Assembly (NCBI GenBank): GCA_003130835.1
Contig: QEXX01000119.1
Location: forward strand, 1 to 39,001
Length of the DNA: 39,001 bases
Direction: 5' to 3'
Source of the DNA: Anaerolineae bacterium
GTDB lineage: Bacteria > Chloroflexota > Anaerolineae > Anaerolineales > UBA4823
A program made the position numbers and the translations under genes. Of the stretch, positions 598-19,241 are shown in pieces. Numbering within the stretch: position 1 is the stretch's first letter; every line of letters begins with the position of its first letter. The notes beneath the pieces were generated by a model that was not told where the DNA came from, did not search any database, and saw nothing but the letters and a program-made list of their open reading frames with translations.

Positions 598-1110
598 TCA
601 CGGGGTGGGGGAGGTCATTGGATGATTGTGCGACTCGCTTCCATGGTCGTGTTCAGCCTCAGGCTGCATTTCCATACCTCCACCTTTGACAGTCACTTGT
701 AGCGGCAGGTCAGCAGAAGAGCGAAACTTTAACACCACCTGGAAGGTATCGCCTTCCTTTAGGTCTTTCCGTAACCCAATTAGCATAATATGGTAGCCAC
801 CGGGTTGCATTTGGATCTCTCCCCCAGCCGGCAGGTCAATCGCCTCTTGCTTCATCATGATCATCACCCCCTGATCGTTGACTTCTGACTTATGCAATTC
901 AACCGCTTCAGCGACATCCGAAGTGGCGCCGATCAATTGGTCGCCCTGATTGCTATGGTTATGCAGGATCATGTAAACTGCACCATTGCCACCCATCATC
1001 GCTGGGCGAGCCCAAACTTCGTGGGCTTTTATTTCTGCCGTTTGGGTTTGACAGGCGAACAACAACAAACCCATCAGGGGCATCAAAGCGAGATAGATTT
1101 TTTGTTTCAT
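598..1110 (-). CDS. PCuAC-type periplasmic copper(I) chaperone lipoprotein
   Basis: 170 aa. The signal peptide ends in a lipobox (LLFAC, Cys20), so it is probably membrane-anchored outside the cell. The PCuAC Cu(I) site is visible: His73, Met85, and His107-x-Met109, with the usual 21-residue gap from Met85 to His107. A His-rich tail (residues ~152-163, HDHGSESHNH) could add metal-binding capacity. PCuAC proteins deliver copper to the CuA site of cytochrome oxidase together with SCO proteins, and both an oxidase and an SCO lie about 13 kb away. GGAGG lies 6 bases before the ATG, which overlaps the upstream regulator stop as ATGA, so the two are translationally coupled. Confidence 0.9.
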   Translation of the reverse strand: MKQKIYLALMPLMGLLLFACQTQTAEIKAHEVWARPAMMGGNGAVYMILHNHSNQGDQLIGATSDVAEAVELHKSEVNDQGVMIMMKQEAIDLPAGGEIQMQPGGYHIMLIGLRKDLKEGDTFQVVLKFRSSADLPLQVTVKGGGMEMQPEAEHDHGSESHNHPMTSPTP

Positions 1111-1673
1111 TGCGAGCCTCCATGAATTTGAGATCGGATAGGATTCTGGTTAATGAATTCAACAGCTTGATAGAAATCAACCACCCGCCCGCCAAATCCC
1201 TTTTGGAATTTCAGGGCTTCTGCGCGTGAGTCAAAGGCTAACACGGTTGGAGAACAACAGATGGTCAACTCTAAATCAATCAAGTAATGGGCTTGAAAAG
1301 CCGTAATGACATGTCCATGTAAGAAGTCAGTGGCTAAGGTCTGCCAACTGTCCCCATGCTGACGATAAGCCATTAAGCCACAGTGAGGACAACACAGACG
1401 ATACAGATTTCCTTCGGCGCTCACGAGGGTAAAAGCATTCTGTTCTTTGATTTTCTGACCACACATCTGGCATTGGTCAGCCCAGCTGCTATTGCGCTTT
1501 GGCATAGCGGTAACTTTGCCATACTGCTTGAGAACGAAACCAGCCTGTTGCAGGGCAGCCAAGTCTCGATGGATGGTCATTTTCGAGACTCCAAACTCTT
1601 GCGCTAAGGCCTCAATGGTCATATAGTCTCGGGCAGCGAGTTTCTCTAAGATCAGTTTTTGACGATAGTTCAT
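1107..1673 (-). CDS. DeoR-type HTH regulator fused to NosL-like metal-binding domain (probable copper sensor)
   Basis: 188 aa. Residues ~1-55 form a DeoR-type winged helix (YMTIEALAQEFGVSKMTIHRDLAAL). Residues ~65-172 resemble NosL, the copper(I)-binding lipoprotein family: Cys68-x2-Cys71, Cys94/Cys95/Cys98, the A-x-DFLHGHVITA strand, CCSP (Cys139/140), and the AEALKFQKGFGGRVVDFYQA end. There is no signal peptide, so the domain is cytoplasmic here. It is the first gene of a two-gene operon with the PCuAC chaperone and sits behind a promoter containing an inverted repeat, which suggests autoregulation. The HTH call is strong and the NosL-like call good; copper as ligand is inferred from domain and neighbour. 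Start ATG at 1673 has no clear Shine-Dalgarno. Confidence 0.8.
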   Translation of the reverse strand: MNYRQKLILEKLAARDYMTIEALAQEFGVSKMTIHRDLAALQQAGFVLKQYGKVTAMPKRNSSWADQCQMCGQKIKEQNAFTLVSAEGNLYRLCCPHCGLMAYRQHGDSWQTLATDFLHGHVITAFQAHYLIDLELTICCSPTVLAFDSRAEALKFQKGFGGRVVDFYQAVEFINQNPIRSQIHGGSQ

Positions 1674-1680
1674 AACTTAG

Positions 1681-1745
1681 ATGTTATATTTTGTTATTTT
1701 TATCATTTTATCACACAATATAACATTTTTTACCCAAATTGTCAA
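1681..1745 (-). promoter_or_regulatory. Sigma70 promoter with overlapping inverted-repeat operator for the copper operon
   Basis: On the minus strand TTGACA (1745-1740), a 17-base spacer and TATATT (1722-1717) form a near-consensus promoter. A perfect 10-base inverted repeat, ATGTTATATT at 1681-1690 and AATATAACAT at 1717-1726, has one arm on the -10 and the other just before the gene start. TGTTAT recurs at 1692-1697, 10 bases from the copy at 1682. A DeoR-type repressor bound to both arms would block transcription. The elements are seen directly; binding by the adjacent regulator is inferred. Confidence 0.72.
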
Positions 1746-11639: not shown

Positions 11640-13076
11640 CTAAATTACTGCGTCCAGCACCAGCACCAGAAACAAAAAGGCTAAATACATGCTGGAATAA
11701 CGATACATCTTCCACGCCACCTTGTTTCCTTGTTGTCTCCATACTTTCCAAGCCGCAGATATCAACCATAGCCCTAATAAACTCACGCCAATCAAGGTAA
11801 AGGTTCCCCCAAAACCGAACAACGGCAAGAGCAAGGTCAAGCCGACCAGTTCTAGGGTATAGAGAAGAATTTGCCGACGCGTCTCTTGCTCGCCGCGTAC
11901 GACGGGCAGCATAGGAACACCAGCCCGTGCGTAATCATTACGCCGTACCAAAGCCAACGCCCAAAAATGAGGTGGCGTCCACATAAAAATCACGACAAAA
12001 AGGAAAAGCGCAGATAGTTTCAAATCGCCAGTTGCGGCTGCCCAACCGACCAACGGAGGGATCGCCCCAGCTCCACCCCCGATGACAATATTTTGCGGGG
12101 TAGCCTTCTTTAGCCAAATGCTATAAATGACGACATAATAGACAAATCCTACAAGGCTCAGCACAGCAGCTAACCAGTTGACTTTGACAATCAGCACATA
12201 GAAAGAAAGCAAAGAGATACCGACCGCAACAGCCAGTCCTTGGGCAGGGGTTAAACGGCCTGCAGGAATGGGTCGTTTCTGAGTTCGCTGCATTTTCCGA
12301 TCGTCTTCACGGTCTAAGTATTGATTTACGGCGCTTGCGCCTCCAGCCGCTAAGAATCCACCCAACAACGTCCAAAAAGCAAGCGAAAAAGACGGCAAAC
12401 GCCCTGCGCCGATCACCATGCCGGCATAGGTGGTCACCAACAAGAGGGCAACCACAATGGGTTTGGTGAGCAGGAGAAAATCTATGAGCAGGCTCCACCG
12501 CCATGAGAATGCCTGTTTGCGCCCTATCTCCTCTTCTAGCGAAAGCCCTGAGCGTCCGACAGCCACCCCTAAACCAATCGCCGTAATCCAAATGGCAAGA
12601 AAGGTTACCTGGTGCAGCACGGTATAGAGCAACGCAAAACCTTCTACCAATTTTTGTCCTAGCAAGGATTGGGCAAAGTACAGGACCACAATCACTGTAG
12701 CCGGAAGGACGATGGGCGTCTTTTCCCGGTACCACGTAAAAGCACGCACCCAATACCCTAACCATCCAATCCCGACTAGGAAAACCAGCAAACGATGGGC
12801 AAAATTGATCCATTGCCGTGAATCACTGGGCAACACCTGGTCTGTGCATAACGGCCACGCCGAGCAAATCTGCCCTAGATCAAAATGGGCAATAACGGCT
12901 CCACTCCCCAGAATAATCATCAAACTAAGAATCATCCAGATCGTCCAGCGCGCAAAAGGAGTCGAATAGGTTAGATGAAGGCGCAGAGCTAAGTTTGTTA
13001 TTTGGCGCAGGACAATCCAAGCTGCTATTCCTATTACAACAAAAGAAGCAAGAAGAGAGGTTGTTGATAGGGTCAT
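11640..13076 (-). CDS. ctaB: Fusion of half-size heme A synthase (CtaA/Cox15) and heme O synthase (CtaB)
   Basis: 478 aa from ATG 13076, which overlaps the SURF1 stop as ATGA (an upstream in-frame Met at 13142 is unlikely). Residues ~8-175: an anchor helix plus one four-helix CtaA bundle, with the loop cysteines CSAWPLC (71, 77), NFAHR (His94) and a second His (155, LHQ). Normal CtaA has two such bundles. Residues ~195-478: complete CtaB farnesyltransferase, with NQYLDREDD (Asn251, Asp255, Asp259), RPIPAGRLTP and WTPPHFWALAL. CtaB makes heme O from heme B; CtaA oxidises it to heme A. The usual Glu of the ExxHR motif is Asn91 here. Confidence 0.9.
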   Translation of the reverse strand: MTLSTTSLLASFVVIGIAAWIVLRQITNLALRLHLTYSTPFARWTIWMILSLMIILGSGAVIAHFDLGQICSAWPLCTDQVLPSDSRQWINFAHRLLVFLVGIGWLGYWVRAFTWYREKTPIVLPATVIVVLYFAQSLLGQKLVEGFALLYTVLHQVTFLAIWITAIGLGVAVGRSGLSLEEEIGRKQAFSWRWSLLIDFLLLTKPIVVALLLVTTYAGMVIGAGRLPSFSLAFWTLLGGFLAAGGASAVNQYLDREDDRKMQRTQKRPIPAGRLTPAQGLAVAVGISLLSFYVLIVKVNWLAAVLSLVGFVYYVVIYSIWLKKATPQNIVIGGGAGAIPPLVGWAAATGDLKLSALFLFVVIFMWTPPHFWALALVRRNDYARAGVPMLPVVRGEQETRRQILLYTLELVGLTLLLPLFGFGGTFTLIGVSLLGLWLISAAWKVWRQQGNKVAWKMYRYSSMYLAFLFLVLVLDAVI

Positions 13077-13870
13077 CGTCCCATCCTTCGTTTGATAAAA
13101 AATGGATAACCAATCGCTAAAATTGCCGCAAACGTAAACCATTGTAAGGCATACCCTAGATGAGGGCCTTCACTGAGATCAAGTTCGACCATAGCGGGGA
13201 TCGGCAATCCTGCTGCCTCTCCCTCGCCTTCGGTTTGTTGAACATAGACATTTGGAACAATCGGATAGTCAATCTGCTGCGCAATTGCTTCGACATTGGC
13301 AAGGTTCCAAGCCTTGAGAGGTGGTTCTCCGGCTGATGGAATGGGGTCACTACGGCGGCCGAAATCTGGTCTGGTCTGCGCTCGGCGAATCACCCCTTTG
13401 ACGGTCACTTCGCCTTCTTGGTTATAGGGAGACCAATCTCCGTTGAGAAACGCCTCACCAGGGATCCAGCCGCGGTTGACCAAAATCGCTTGTTCAGTGC
13501 CTTTAATCTTGAGAGGAGTCAGCAAGTAGACCCCCCAGCGATTTTGATAAGCCTGATTGCGTAAGGCAACCTGATTGGCAAAATCATATTCACCTTGCAC
13601 AATGACGGTTCGGTATTCCATGTCATACAGATTCTCACCAAGAGATCTAGAGTCTAAAACCAAAGGCGGCTGAGCAAGTTGAGCTTGGACACGCGCATTA
13701 AAGGCACGGCGTTGCTCCAGTCGATCCAATTGCCAGATTCCCAGCCGTACCATCACCCCTACCGCAATCACAACTAAACCTGTGGTCAGCCAAAACCGAA
13801 AGCTTAACCATTGGCTTTTCAAGCCTTTTTGAGTAGAAGGGATCGTTGTCGAGTGAAGTGACTGACTCAT
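13073..13870 (-). CDS. SURF1 family cytochrome oxidase assembly protein
   Basis: 265 aa. The two SURF1 membrane helices are at the ends (FWLTTGLVVIAVGVMVRLGIWQLDRL ~27-52; LGYALQWFTFAAILAIGYPFF ~235-257), enclosing an extracytoplasmic beta-rich domain with ILVNRGWIP, the family hallmark. SURF1 helps place heme A into subunit I. Both ends overlap neighbours by ATGA (13867-13870 and 13073-13076), giving tight coupling between the cupredoxin-like protein and the heme synthase fusion. Confidence 0.93.
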   Translation of the reverse strand: MSQSLHSTTIPSTQKGLKSQWLSFRFWLTTGLVVIAVGVMVRLGIWQLDRLEQRRAFNARVQAQLAQPPLVLDSRSLGENLYDMEYRTVIVQGEYDFANQVALRNQAYQNRWGVYLLTPLKIKGTEQAILVNRGWIPGEAFLNGDWSPYNQEGEVTVKGVIRRAQTRPDFGRRSDPIPSAGEPPLKAWNLANVEAIAQQIDYPIVPNVYVQQTEGEGEAAGLPIPAMVELDLSEGPHLGYALQWFTFAAILAIGYPFFIKRRMGR

Positions 13871-14403
13871 ACAGCTTCTTTCCCTGTTGGCTTGGCGGAG
13901 TTGAGCGAGCCATTTACTTTCAACGGCACAACCACTAAGCTATAGACAAAGAGCAACATTGCCAAAGTTGGGGCTGCCATCGCTAAAGCCAGAAGACGGC
14001 TGCTCCACGTTGTCGGCTTCAAGACATCCACGCCAAAATAATTGCCTACCACAAAACTGCACTGGTAAGCAAGTTTGTCGGGGTTATCAAACCGCAAACT
14101 GGCTGAGCGACCAGCCGGGATCCACAGCGGACCAAGCTGATGATCGACAACGTCTTCATTATGCACCAAGAGCACATCTCCCACAACAAAAGTCATCCCC
14201 TCTGGAATTGATACATCCTCAGCACCTTGAGCAAGTTGCTCTGCTGTACCGTTTGGAATTACCAATTCAATCGTGGTGGGAGGACGATCCCGCTCGTCCC
14301 GTTGTAGCAAATACATCGCTTCGTTGAAAAGTGCCACAAAGACCACTGCCAGCAGGAAAACCACACCAAACCTTTTTAGATAAGGGAGAAACGTCTGCGG
14401 CAT
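13867..14403 (-). CDS. Cupredoxin-like protein with two flanking membrane helices
   Basis: 178 aa: helix at ~12-32, an extracytoplasmic domain ~45-125, then a second helix ~134-162 and a short charged tail. The middle has a cupredoxin pattern (IPEGMTFVVGDVLLVHNEDVVDHQLG...LRFDNPDKLAYQCSF), with His88 and Cys115 in the places of the first His and the Cys ligand of a type 1 copper site. The second His and Met after the Cys are absent, so a normal blue-copper site is unlikely. It sits between SCO and SURF1 and is probably an oxidase copper-assembly factor or scaffold. No exact family name is recognised. Confidence 0.65.
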   Translation of the reverse strand: MPQTFLPYLKRFGVVFLLAVVFVALFNEAMYLLQRDERDRPPTTIELVIPNGTAEQLAQGAEDVSIPEGMTFVVGDVLLVHNEDVVDHQLGPLWIPAGRSASLRFDNPDKLAYQCSFVVGNYFGVDVLKPTTWSSRLLALAMAAPTLAMLLFVYSLVVVPLKVNGSLNSAKPTGKEAV

Positions 14404-14406
14404 CGC

Positions 14407-15012
14407 TTAGCGCACTCCTTTCAGCAAATGACGGAGATCCTCCAGTAAGATTCTTGCGCCTATATCGTAAGGATAGGTGAGAATCAAATTTTGTTCTGCA
14501 TCCAAAACATAGATGCGCGCCGAATGATCGACCAAGTAATTTTGCATCCCTTCGACCTGACGAATCTGGCGATAAGCCCCAAACTGCTTCCACACCTTAG
14601 CTAACTCTTCTTCGGCACCGGTTAGTCCAATAAACTGTGCATCAAAGTTTTGCAGGTGTTTGGCTAGCACCTGTGGCGTATCGCGTTGCGGGTCAACCGT
14701 GATAAAGACAAAGCGCACTTTCTCAGCTTGCTGAGCGAGATTCGCCCTAACCTGTTTGAACTCGGCTAACGTGATTGGACAAACATCCGGACAATAGGTA
14801 TAGCCAAAGAACACCAAAACCAGCTTTCCCTTTAGGTCCGACAAGCGAAAGGTTGCACCATGTTGATCGGTAAGCTGAAAGTCGGCCATTGGCAAAGGCG
14901 GTTCAATCAATGTGCCGCGATACGTATAGGGGCGCAAAACAAACCCCACCCCTAACAAGATAAGGAGCAATCCGATCAAACCGCCGCCAAGCCAGACCTT
15001 TTGCTTTGTCAT
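14407..15012 (-). CDS. SCO1/SenC family copper chaperone for oxidase
   Basis: 201 aa from ATG 15012; the longer start at 15060 would run into coxC. One N-terminal helix (~6-27) anchors a thioredoxin-fold domain. Copper-binding CPDVCP (TYCPDVCPITLAEF) and the downstream His (YLVDHSARIYVLD) are intact, as is the DPQRDTP loop. SCO proteins load or reduce the CuA site of subunit II. The gap to the cupredoxin-like gene is 3 bases. Confidence 0.95.
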   Translation of the reverse strand: MTKQKVWLGGGLIGLLLILLGVGFVLRPYTYRGTLIEPPLPMADFQLTDQHGATFRLSDLKGKLVLVFFGYTYCPDVCPITLAEFKQVRANLAQQAEKVRFVFITVDPQRDTPQVLAKHLQNFDAQFIGLTGAEEELAKVWKQFGAYRQIRQVEGMQNYLVDHSARIYVLDAEQNLILTYPYDIGARILLEDLRHLLKGVR

Positions 15013-15040
15013 TCCAATCACCGTTCCCTTTGCGATCCCC

Positions 15041-15619
15041 TCATGGCAGAGGCGTACCAATCAAATACAACGCTGGGTAGAAGAAGATCCACACCACGTC
15101 CACAAAATGCCAATACACTGCCGCAGCTTCCACTGCCCAATGCTTTTGCCGTGAATAGTGCCCTCGTGCACCGTTGCGTAACACGACAGCCAAGAAGATC
15201 ACCCCAGTAAGGACATGAAAAGCATGGAAACCGGTCAGGGTGTAAAAAATCGAAGCGGCTGCTCCATCGGCTGTTCCAAAAGGCGCAATTTGCCACTCAA
15301 CGCCCACGACGCCCACTAAGAAGGCCAGTCCTAAGACAAGGGTAATGGCTGTATTCCGTAGAAAGGCTTTGCGGTCGTCATGTGCCATTGCAATCTCGGC
15401 GCGGTTCATAAAGAAGGAGCTTGTTAGCAGTAGTACTGTGACCACAAAACCAACCACTTGGTCGAGATGAGGCCGCGCTTGGGTGCCAAGCAGGTAGAAG
15501 CGACTGACCAATAACCCGCCGAAGACAAACGAGTCAGAAAGGATAAAGAGCCATAGACCCAGGCGGTTGATTGCCAGTTTTTCGCGATAGGAATGCGTAA
15601 CCCCGGTTTGTGTGGTCAT
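15041..15619 (-). CDS. ctaE: Cytochrome c oxidase subunit III
   Basis: 192 aa with five predicted helices, the short bacterial form without the first two helices of the long form. Hallmarks: KLAINRLGLWLFILSDSFVFGGLL, FHAFHVLTGVIFL, and VEAAAVYWHFVDVVWIFFYPALYLIG at the end. GGAGG precedes the ATG, which overlaps the subunit IV stop as ATGA. It belongs to the aa3/caa3-type oxidase encoded here. Confidence 0.95.
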   Translation of the reverse strand: MTTQTGVTHSYREKLAINRLGLWLFILSDSFVFGGLLVSRFYLLGTQARPHLDQVVGFVVTVLLLTSSFFMNRAEIAMAHDDRKAFLRNTAITLVLGLAFLVGVVGVEWQIAPFGTADGAAASIFYTLTGFHAFHVLTGVIFLAVVLRNGARGHYSRQKHWAVEAAAVYWHFVDVVWIFFYPALYLIGTPLP

Positions 15620-15837
15620 TCTTCCTCCTCAACGTTGACAAATAAGCGTCCAATGTGCATATAGTCCCGCACCACAAAGAAGGCTTTGAGCAATGCCACC
15701 CCCATTAAAGGCACCCACCAGGTAGCAGCAATGCTACCCAAGAAGAACTCACCAATGGTGAGAAAGCCTAATAGAATAAACACACTTACACCAACGCCAT
15801 AGGCTTGTTTTTTTCTTGTTTCCAGGTCTTTTTCCAT
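15616..15837 (-). CDS. Cytochrome c oxidase subunit IV-like small membrane protein
   Basis: 73 aa with two helices (~14-34 and ~38-55) and a C-terminal FVVRDYMHIGRLFVNVEEEE. Size, position between subunits I and III, and the pattern GVALLKAFFVVRDYMHIG match the small CtaF/COX4 family that stabilises bacterial oxidases. GGAGG lies 7 bases upstream of the ATG, and the stop overlaps coxC. Confidence 0.85.
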   Translation of the reverse strand: MEKDLETRKKQAYGVGVSVFILLGFLTIGEFFLGSIAATWWVPLMGVALLKAFFVVRDYMHIGRLFVNVEEEE

Positions 15838-15857
15838 CTGGTTCCTCCAAATTCAAC

Positions 15858-17771
15858 CTAATCTGCGGAAGCTACGGCTGTATCCGGTGGCAAGCTCGGT
15901 TCACTTGTCTCACGCAATGGTGCAGACGAACTTAGCCGTACATAAACAGCACCTTCTAAACCGTAATCGTAGGGTTCTCCGACCACCTCAATCGGTTCGG
16001 GGTAGTTGTGAGCCGGAATCGGTGTGGGCAAGAGGGCCCACTCAGGCGAGCGCGAACGCCACACGTTGGTGGTCACCACTTTGCCTTTGGCTGCGCTGTA
16101 AGCGAAGTTTATGAAGGCAATGATTAGCGAGATACCGATCACATAGGCAGCCACGGTTATCAGTAAATGGCTGAATTCAATTTGCAAGGCCGGATCGTAA
16201 TCGGCAATCCGTCGGCGCATTCCTAACAAGCCCACTTGCATCTGGCCCAGCGATTGCACATAGAAGGCCGGCAGCATCATATAGAAGTGGATTTTCCCCA
16301 GAGTCTCGTTATACATCCGCCCGGTGATCTTGGGGAACCAATAATAGATGGCTGCCAAGAAGGGGAAGAGGAAGCCGCCAAACATGGTGGCATGGAAGTG
16401 CCCGACAATCCAATAGGTATCTTGCAAATGCAGATCCGTTGCCACCACGCCATTCGGTGGGCCGCTCAAACCTCCTAGTAAGAAGATCGAGATGGCACCC
16501 AAGACAAACAACATTGGCGTTTCAAAGGATAGTTTCCCTTCCCAAATTGTTGCCACCCAACTGAAGAATTTGACACCGGTCGGCACGGCGACCAGTAAGG
16601 TGCTATACATAAAGGGTACACGCAGGTACGGCTCCATCCCGGAGGTGAACATATGGTGCGCCCACACGAGGAAGCCAACCAGAGCAATACCAAATGAGGA
16701 GAGCGCTACCCAGCGGTATCCAAAGAGCGGCTTACGCGCAAAGACCGGCAACAATTCACTGATCACCCCTAAACCGGTCAACACAAACACATAAACGGCC
16801 GGATGCGAATAAAACCAAAACAGATGCTGGAACAAGATTGGATTGCCGCCCTTGGCCGGTTCAAAGAAAGCCATGCCAAACAAGCGCTCAAACATAACTA
16901 ACTGGAAGGATAAGCCGATCAACTGCGTTGCCGTGAGGGCAATCAAAGCAGTGGCAGCCGCTGTCCAAACAAAGACCGGCATGCGAAAGTAGGTCATCCC
17001 TTTCGCTCGCAGCTTCATGACCGTAGCAATGATATTGAGGGCGCCAAAGATAGAGGAGAAGCCGATGAAATAAACGCCCAGCAAAAACCATTGCGTCCCT
17101 AAAGGCGCCCGACTACTCAGCGGTGGATAACCCGTCCAACCTGTTTCCAAGCCGCCCATAAACAAAGTGCCGACCAACAAGATAACCGCCGGCACGTTGA
17201 TCCAATAGGCAAAGGCGTTCAAGCGCGGAAAAGCCATATCATTGGCGCCAATTAACAAGGGCACCAAATAGTTTGACATCGCTCCAACACCCAACAACAT
17301 GCCGCCGATCATGACAATGCCATGCAGGGTCATGATGGTGTTGTAATCTTGCGGTTGCAGGAATTGAATGCCCGGAGCAATCAATTCCGTGCGGAAGATG
17401 ATCGCAAACAAACCCGCCAACGAGATCACGATGAGGGCTGTCACGCCATATTGGATACCGATGATTTTGTGATCATACGAAACACTAAGGTATTTCGCCC
17501 ATCCCTGCAAACGCGGGTCGGTTTCCGGGAAATCGGGCGTCTCCTCGCCCAACGCCCATTTGATCCAATCGCGCATGACACCCACCATCAGCATAAAGCC
17601 AATGGTGCCAAACACTCCTGCGAGCACCCAAGCCGCTTCAGGATTCCAAACCGGCAATCCCAGCAAAGCTCGAATGCCGCTAACCAAACCCAAACCGATC
17701 AACACCCCCAAAGTCATACCGATCAGTCCGCGCACCAAGCCAATTTCAAAAAGATGAACTTTTTCCTTCAT
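15858..17771 (-). CDS. ctaD: Cytochrome c oxidase subunit I, A2-type heme-copper oxidase
   Basis: 637 aa. Two extra N-terminal helices (~10-65) precede the 12-helix core. Heme a ligands His150 and His460, CuB ligands His323, His372 and His373, heme a3 ligand His458, and the K-channel Lys (PTGVKFFSW, Lys401) are present. The helix VI motif is YSHPAVY (321-327): the Glu of A1-type HPEVY is missing and the Tyr-Ser pair of A2-type enzymes replaces it. His323-Tyr327 is the expected cross-linked pair. The ~60-residue tail is Pro/Ser-rich. GGGAG lies 8 bases before ATG, 12 bases after coxB. It reduces O2 to water and pumps protons. Confidence 0.96.
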   Translation of the reverse strand: MKEKVHLFEIGLVRGLIGMTLGVLIGLGLVSGIRALLGLPVWNPEAAWVLAGVFGTIGFMLMVGVMRDWIKWALGEETPDFPETDPRLQGWAKYLSVSYDHKIIGIQYGVTALIVISLAGLFAIIFRTELIAPGIQFLQPQDYNTIMTLHGIVMIGGMLLGVGAMSNYLVPLLIGANDMAFPRLNAFAYWINVPAVILLVGTLFMGGLETGWTGYPPLSSRAPLGTQWFLLGVYFIGFSSIFGALNIIATVMKLRAKGMTYFRMPVFVWTAAATALIALTATQLIGLSFQLVMFERLFGMAFFEPAKGGNPILFQHLFWFYSHPAVYVFVLTGLGVISELLPVFARKPLFGYRWVALSSFGIALVGFLVWAHHMFTSGMEPYLRVPFMYSTLLVAVPTGVKFFSWVATIWEGKLSFETPMLFVLGAISIFLLGGLSGPPNGVVATDLHLQDTYWIVGHFHATMFGGFLFPFLAAIYYWFPKITGRMYNETLGKIHFYMMLPAFYVQSLGQMQVGLLGMRRRIADYDPALQIEFSHLLITVAAYVIGISLIIAFINFAYSAAKGKVVTTNVWRSRSPEWALLPTPIPAHNYPEPIEVVGEPYDYGLEGAVYVRLSSSAPLRETSEPSLPPDTAVASAD

Positions 17772-17783
17772 AGTCGCACTCCC

Positions 17784-19241
17784 TTAGCGTAAGGTCTTGA
17801 TAAAGGCAATGATGTCTTGAATGCGTTCATCGCTTAAGTCTTGGCCGACATTGGCTGGCATCACATTGGGGTAGCCTTCCACAATAGCAGCGCCTGGGTT
17901 GCGGATCGACTCGATAATGTAGGCCTCATCCGCAATCACTGTCCTGCCATCGGCTAGCTTCACTTCAGAACCAAACAAACCAAGCCAGCTCGGGCCGACC
18001 AGCTTCGAACCATCCAAAGAGTGACACGATAGACAACCATATTGATTCGACCACTTGCGCCCGCGTTCGACCGGATCGGTCGACTCACCGGTCTGCTGAG
18101 CCACCCATACATCAAAGTCCGCTTGAGAAACCACAATCACCGGTGATTCCATATAAGCATGGCGAATCCCACACAATTCGGCACAGCGCACTTTATAGGA
18201 GCCAATTTCCGTAGGGGTAATGCGTAACGTGCGCACAAATTCCTCACCGCCGGGCAGCAAGTCCTGCTTGACGCGAAATTCGGGCACCCAGAAGGAGTGA
18301 ATGACATCTTGGGAAGTTAAGTAAAGAACCACCTGTTTGTTTACCGGCAATACAAGTTCATTTGAAACGATTCCATAGCGGGGATATTCAAACCGCCATG
18401 TCCATTGCATCCCGATGACATCCACTTCTAATGCCTTGGGGTCAGGACGTTCAACCTCGGCAAGCGATCGGGCGCCCAAAAAAGACAAGCCTAAGACGAT
18501 AATCAATGGAATGGTTGTCCAAGTTACCTCCAGCTTTGTGTTGCCTTCGATATGGCGCGCATCGCTTTCATCTCCCTTGCGACGGCGAAACACGACAATG
18601 CTGTACAGCATGAACACAACGATTAGGGAAAACAAGAAAGCAATGGCAAAGAACATTAATCGAAACAGTTGATCGATCGGCTGCGCCTGAGTGCTAGCGG
18701 CAACCGGCAGCAGGCGCACTTGTCCTGCGCCTAAGATCAGCAACACCGTCAAGACAACAACCAAAAATCCTGCTACAACGAAATGCTTCATACGGTTACT
18801 CCTTGATGAATTGTTTCGTTTATCAACCCCAGCCGAACTCACTTTTAACTTGGTACTCGCCTCTTGCCATCCCTCAAACCATTCCTCAAATTGAGAGAGG
18901 GGCAACTCGCGTCGATCATAGAGCATAGCACTTTCCGGATTGGATAAAGAAACCAGGATAATGCGTTTCTGTCCGCCTCCACCCACAAATCGCCGCAGGA
19001 AATCCTCCTGGTTTAGCTGATCATCGTCGTAATCGACGATCACCAAATCCACTTCGTGCTTTTCCAAAACCTCAATGGCGCTCTCAAAGTTGGTGACTTC
19101 TGCGACGATCTCGACTTTTACCCCAAGTTTTTTCTTAAATAAGCTCATCAAACCATGTCGAAAGAGGGCATGGTTTGAAGCAATGAGAACCCTTACTGTT
19201 GAGCGACTGAAATTGCGAAACATACCCAGAATCCTGCTCAA
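17784..19241 (-). CDS. ctaC: caa3-type oxidase subunit II with in-frame pseudo-receiver extension
   Basis: The frame is open for 485 codons from TTG 19241; ATG 19223 (residue 7) is a better long start. Residues ~15-120 are a response-regulator receiver-like domain: VRVLIASNHALFRHGLMSLF and DLVIVDYD (Asp70). The acidic pair is replaced by Ser-Asn and the beta5 Lys region is lost, so phosphorylation is doubtful. From Met151 (18791) it is ordinary CoxB: signal-like helix, two membrane helices, CuA ligands His315, Cys353, Cys357, His361, Met364, then a cytochrome c domain (CLSCH 403-407, Met461). AAGGAG sits 7 bases before Met151, so a separate 335-aa CoxB is very likely made. A fusion, a nested start, or both are possible. 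Confidence 0.9.
   Translation of the reverse strand: MSRILGMFRNFSRSTVRVLIASNHALFRHGLMSLFKKKLGVKVEIVAEVTNFESAIEVLEKHEVDLVIVDYDDDQLNQEDFLRRFVGGGGQKRIILVSLSNPESAMLYDRRELPLSQFEEWFEGWQEASTKLKVSSAGVDKRNNSSRSNRMKHFVVAGFLVVVLTVLLILGAGQVRLLPVAASTQAQPIDQLFRLMFFAIAFLFSLIVVFMLYSIVVFRRRKGDESDARHIEGNTKLEVTWTTIPLIIVLGLSFLGARSLAEVERPDPKALEVDVIGMQWTWRFEYPRYGIVSNELVLPVNKQVVLYLTSQDVIHSFWVPEFRVKQDLLPGGEEFVRTLRITPTEIGSYKVRCAELCGIRHAYMESPVIVVSQADFDVWVAQQTGESTDPVERGRKWSNQYGCLSCHSLDGSKLVGPSWLGLFGSEVKLADGRTVIADEAYIIESIRNPGAAIVEGYPNVMPANVGQDLSDERIQDIIAFIKTLR
18792..18804 (-). promoter_or_regulatory. Strong internal ribosome binding site at CoxB Met151
   Basis: AAGGAG (18804-18799, minus strand) with a 7-base spacer to ATG 18791, inside the longer reading frame. 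The protein from this ATG begins MKHFVVAGFLVVV, a normal CoxB signal/anchor, so this site probably decides the start of the mature oxidase subunit. Confidence 0.7.

Follow-up and report, generated by a model that had tools for sequence, protein, structure and literature searches.

The question raised by this locus is whether a short gene that joins a DNA-binding domain to a NosL-like domain encodes a copper-sensing repressor and, if so, whether that repressor is of a new class, as the initial annotation had proposed. The gene lies on the minus strand at positions 1107-1673 of the window, i.e., the whole 39,001-nucleotide stretch of DNA that was analysed, and encodes a 188 aa protein. A DeoR-type winged helix (residues 4-56, positions 1506-1664, minus strand) is supported by Pfam (HTH_DeoR, E 8e-14) and by the predicted fold, and is followed by the NosL-like domain (residues about 55-177, positions 1143-1511, minus strand). 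The protein begins with the winged helix and has no signal peptide, so that both the fusion and the missing signal, first read from the letters of the DNA, were borne out. The profile search against NosL that had been suggested as a check gave a marginal match just above the cutoff (24.2 bits versus 24.0, E 4.5e-5).

Because this sequence score was marginal, a structure of the regulator was predicted, with an alignment of 53 homologues as input (mean pLDDT 89.6; the numbering of the model is that of the protein minus 1). Residues about 55-177 of the prediction aligned to Shewanella NosL (7og7) with a Z score of 14.8 over 120 residues (rmsd 2.9), the remaining NosL chains gave Z scores of 12.9-13.4, and structures ranked lower aligned with the winged helix only. 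A Foldseek search with the model likewise retrieved NosL (E 2.8e-6). This agreement makes the domain assignment sound, with the C-terminal domain predicted to adopt a NosL fold. The likeness to the NosL chaperones (7og7 and 7osf, Z 12.9-14.8) is one of fold; NosL is an exported lipoprotein serving nitrous oxide reductase, whereas the regulator has no export signal or lipobox, carries a helix-turn-helix (HTH) domain, and has a different set of cysteines. We also asked whether the regulator might be tied to nitrous oxide reductase and rejected this, since it is itself the genome's sole NosL-type match and there is thus no sign of a nos cluster. With the DeoR/GlpR sugar-phosphate repressors the protein shares its HTH domain, but it is shorter (188 aa versus about 250 aa), and where those repressors have the DeoR C-terminal sensor domain, which is absent among its 25 best Pfam families, it has the NosL fold.

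The CxxC, CCxxC, and CC motifs noted initially are all present, as C68-x2-C71 (positions 1461-1472), C94-C95-P-H97-C98 (1380-1394), and C139-C140 (1254-1259), all on the minus strand. In the alignment of homologues (n=53), the seven cysteines and H97 are invariant, the proline of the middle motif being the position that varies.

The gene directly downstream (598-1110, minus strand) encodes a lipoprotein-like PCuAC copper chaperone with a His-rich tail (Pfam PCuAC, E 2.3e-33) and is the presumed target of the regulator. The two genes share 4 nt, ATGA, which confirms the coupling described earlier. Across 396 genomes of the class, about 50 full-length relatives of the regulator were found, and 40 of 50 homologous loci have a copper-delivery or oxidase-assembly gene within five genes. 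Counted over the 50 loci and the same distance, the neighbours are PCuAC (31), a NapH-like polyferredoxin (13), YtkA (11), SCO1 (10), and SURF1 (6); in 27 loci such a gene lies immediately downstream of the regulator and co-directional with it. The other 10 loci have no copper gene within five genes, some of them being on short contigs. Of the 48 genomes that encode the regulator, 47 have the oxidase subunit COX2, compared with 225 of the 348 that lack it; these are raw counts that ignore kinship. The HTH-NosL regulator type is real and widespread, its association with copper genes in related genomes holds as the initial annotation had anticipated, and its homologues link a NosL-type sensor to the copper supply of cytochrome oxidase. 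Neither outcome that the initial annotation had named as a refutation came about, as the NosL similarity stands and the homologues have both copper genes nearby and a conserved repeat. In the window itself, a complete cytochrome c oxidase operon (COX2, COX1, COX3, SCO1, SURF1, and CtaA-CtaB; 11640-19241) lies about 10 kb from the regulator-PCuAC pair.

Two further neighbours deserve mention. One is a membrane protein, roughly 470 aa long, that recurs beside the regulators (L035:3554-4990 and 12 other loci); it has no Pfam family, only a match below cutoff to NapH/MauN-like ferredoxins, and our guess is that it might provide the electrons for reducing copper. The other is a group of genes that several relatives carry upstream of the regulator (clusters c5 and c7); by eye, these look like SbcCD/glycosyltransferase-type genes, unrelated to copper.

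The regulator's promoter, on the minus strand, consists of a -35 hexamer TTGACA (1740-1745) and, 17 nt away, a -10 hexamer TATATT (1717-1722), for 11 of 12 matches and an extended TG. A repeat search together with conservation among homologues places a putative operator here, with a promoter-side arm (1710-1726, minus strand ATGTTATATTGTGTGAT) that contains the -10 hexamer and a gene-side arm (1681-1697, minus strand ATAACAAAATATAACAT). The initial annotation had described a perfect inverted repeat, one arm of which falls on the -10; the position of that arm stands, and the outer 10 nt (ATGTTATATT / AATATAACAT) are indeed perfect, but over its whole 17 nt the repeat is 88% complementary. The candidate operator thus extends beyond 10 nt, and it is built of half-sites placed about every 10 bp. 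Paired arms occur once in the 3.4-Mb genome when searched as a variable-spacing pattern, and a half-site scan found one further weak half-site in the genome (G000:C133:2602-2618); within the window, the half-site is confined to the regulator promoter. Between this promoter and the neighbouring ABC-transporter gene lies a separate 14-nt perfect inverted repeat (1770-1807, AAATTTCCTCTCCC / GGGAGAGGAAATTT), perhaps a terminator.

The same elements recur upstream of related HTH-NosL genes. The sequence TGTTATATT has 17 sites in 13 of 50 homologue upstream regions, versus 0.1 in dinucleotide shuffles, and the shorter TGTTAYA has 43 sites in 26 of the 50, versus 3.0 sites in shuffles, being absent from about half of these regions. 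Same-strand half-sites are spaced 10 bp apart in 25 cases, with every other spacing seen three times or fewer, and opposed half-sites mostly fall near 9, 19, 29, and 39 bp, i.e., in helical-turn steps. In congeneric species, whose regulators are 55-61% identical, TTGACA and the arm on the -10 are kept and most have the second arm just before the start codon; in two members of the same genus (G417 and G448) the left arm is kept and the right arm is degraded. The layout of TTGACA, arm on the -10, and second arm is also found in other families of the order, and aligning the operators with these gave ATGTTATATTnTGTnAAATTTTGTTATAnATAACAAAATATAACAT. Such an array would be expected of an operator through which the regulator controls its own gene and to which more than one dimer binds, and the position of one arm over the -10 is compatible with RNA polymerase simply being occluded.

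A regulator type of this kind is already known from Bacillus subtilis, namely YcnK. A YcnK sequence, used only as a retrieval probe, recovered YcnK loci both within the B. subtilis group and in its relatives; all comparisons use the retrieved B. spizizenii protein. (In a control search, a NosL match was found in B. subtilis.) At the B. spizizenii locus YcnK is followed, co-directionally, by proteins of 542 aa and 207 aa, which from their sequence and order we take to be YcnJ and YcnI. B. spizizenii YcnK has the identical Pfam domain pair, with NosL again at the cutoff, and aligns to the window regulator end to end with 32% identity over 176 residues (E 7e-32); profile comparison with hhalign gives a probability of 100% over 175 columns. 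All eight Cys/His positions of the regulator are present in B. spizizenii YcnK, and the set is invariant across both groups. From its ORF, its Pfam domains, and this comparison, we place the regulator in the YcnK family. The two proteins are of similar length (190 aa for YcnK versus 188 aa), the gene of each heads an operon that includes copper genes, and each has a candidate operator in its own promoter region, apparent here as conserved half-sites.

The targets differ, and the operator appears to differ as well. YcnK acts on a CopC-CopD-YtkA importer and YcnI, whereas the gene coupled to the regulator here encodes PCuAC, and the usual targets among the homologues are oxidase copper chaperones rather than an importer, YtkA being common to both. 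In the window, the half-sites of the candidate operator form an inverted array with a spacing of 10 bp; the operator of B. subtilis YcnK is reported to have been described by Hirooka in 2012 as a direct repeat, and the TGTTATATT array was not found in the Bacillus upstream regions searched, including that of B. spizizenii. A YcnK-like HTH-NosL gene was also seen on a plasmid recorded as Stenotrophomonas rhizophila (L101:5958-6570, CP031730.1); ATGTTATATCTT / AAGTTATAACAT lies immediately before the start of this gene. A literature search pairing DeoR with NosL or with PCuAC found no paper.

The reading that we favour, at a probability of roughly 0.7, is that of a YcnK-type copper-dependent repressor of the regulator-PCuAC operon that is derepressed by copper shortage. 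The NosL-fold domain would bind copper in the cytoplasm through the invariant Cys/His residues, and the copper-loaded regulator, probably as more than one dimer, would occupy the half-sites in its own promoter, over both the -10 and the leader, and so block RNA polymerase. When copper is scarce, the regulator would lose its metal and leave the DNA, the operon would be transcribed, and PCuAC, with SCO1, would then load copper into cytochrome c oxidase. Copper binding, repression, the direction of the switch, and the oligomeric state are all what we infer, and that the copper-loaded form represses while loss of copper derepresses follows from homology to YcnK. Published work describes YcnK as a Cu-dependent repressor with a binding site upstream of the ycn operon, which serves copper uptake (PMC8424229), and reports that ycnKJI rises under copper starvation and falls in copper-replete or excess conditions (PMC12154828). 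Chaperones such as PCuAC and SCO1 matter most at copper scarcity (PMC7558416).

The switch could also work the other way, with copper releasing the same repressor and copper excess inducing the PCuAC operon as a periplasmic buffer, which we consider unlikely. A proposal of this kind exists for YcnK, in a paper that calls the protein Cu-dependent yet suggests in its discussion that cytosolic Cu+ antagonizes it (PMC13344008). The two reports on YcnK and its operon cited above argue against it, as do the neighbours of the regulators, which serve copper delivery and oxidase assembly rather than efflux, and excess could be handled by a CsoR-family protein that the genome also encodes, along with a CopD protein. 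These two proteins also make "self-contained", as the initial annotation had called the sensor and operator pair, a loose term, although the link between the regulator and its own putative operator holds. CsoR, CueR, and CopY respond to copper excess; what the regulator would share with them is copper-dependent control of transcription, and their folds are unrelated to its own. Few bacterial sensors of copper shortage are known, and they have received less study than those of copper excess; given some 50 homologues, a clean target gene, and an operator that is conserved, the NosL-type sensor becomes testable outside Bacillus.

Somewhat less probable again is that the regulator senses redox state, zinc, or another thiophilic metal and thereby matches oxidase assembly to respiration. 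Zinc binding or a disulphide switch would likewise be compatible with the seven invariant cysteines, the part of the protein with CxxC and CCxHC gives weak Pfam matches to zinc-ribbon and TRASH domains (and the cysteines could partly hold structural zinc), and the association with genomes encoding an aerobic oxidase is strong. This is countered by the copper-chaperone fold of the domain, by the Cu dependence of YcnK, and by the commonest neighbour being a copper chaperone. Last, a copper-sensor class unrelated to the known ones is very improbable: the target genes do differ from those of ycnKJI and the operator layout appears to, but the claim of a new class falls because YcnK, already published, has the same two domains, the same Cys/His ligand residues, and similarity over the full length.

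The operator layout and target genes make the regulator a distinct branch of the YcnK-type repressors at most, and not a new kind. We give about even odds to the idea that, in this class, YcnK-type repressors form a branch governing oxidase copper delivery with a different kind of operator. Its targets would be PCuAC, SCO1, YtkA, SURF1, and the NapH-like polyferredoxin rather than import genes, and in its operator, half-sites would be paired at a distance of one helical turn, the inverted array lying on the -10.

We would like to note two oddities of the oxidase operon. An ORF of 485 aa (17784-19241, minus strand) carries a NarL-like receiver (residues 18-101) in frame with oxidase subunit II and cytochrome c. 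The stretch from receiver to CuA domain is free of stops in four other congeneric species (84-89% identity), among which the length of the linker varies (loci L133-L137), and a genome from another family of the order has a TAA between the receiver and CoxB parts; the fusion looks unusual. Between SCO1 and SURF1, a 178 aa protein (13867-14403, minus strand) has no Pfam match and, by eye, could be cupredoxin-like.
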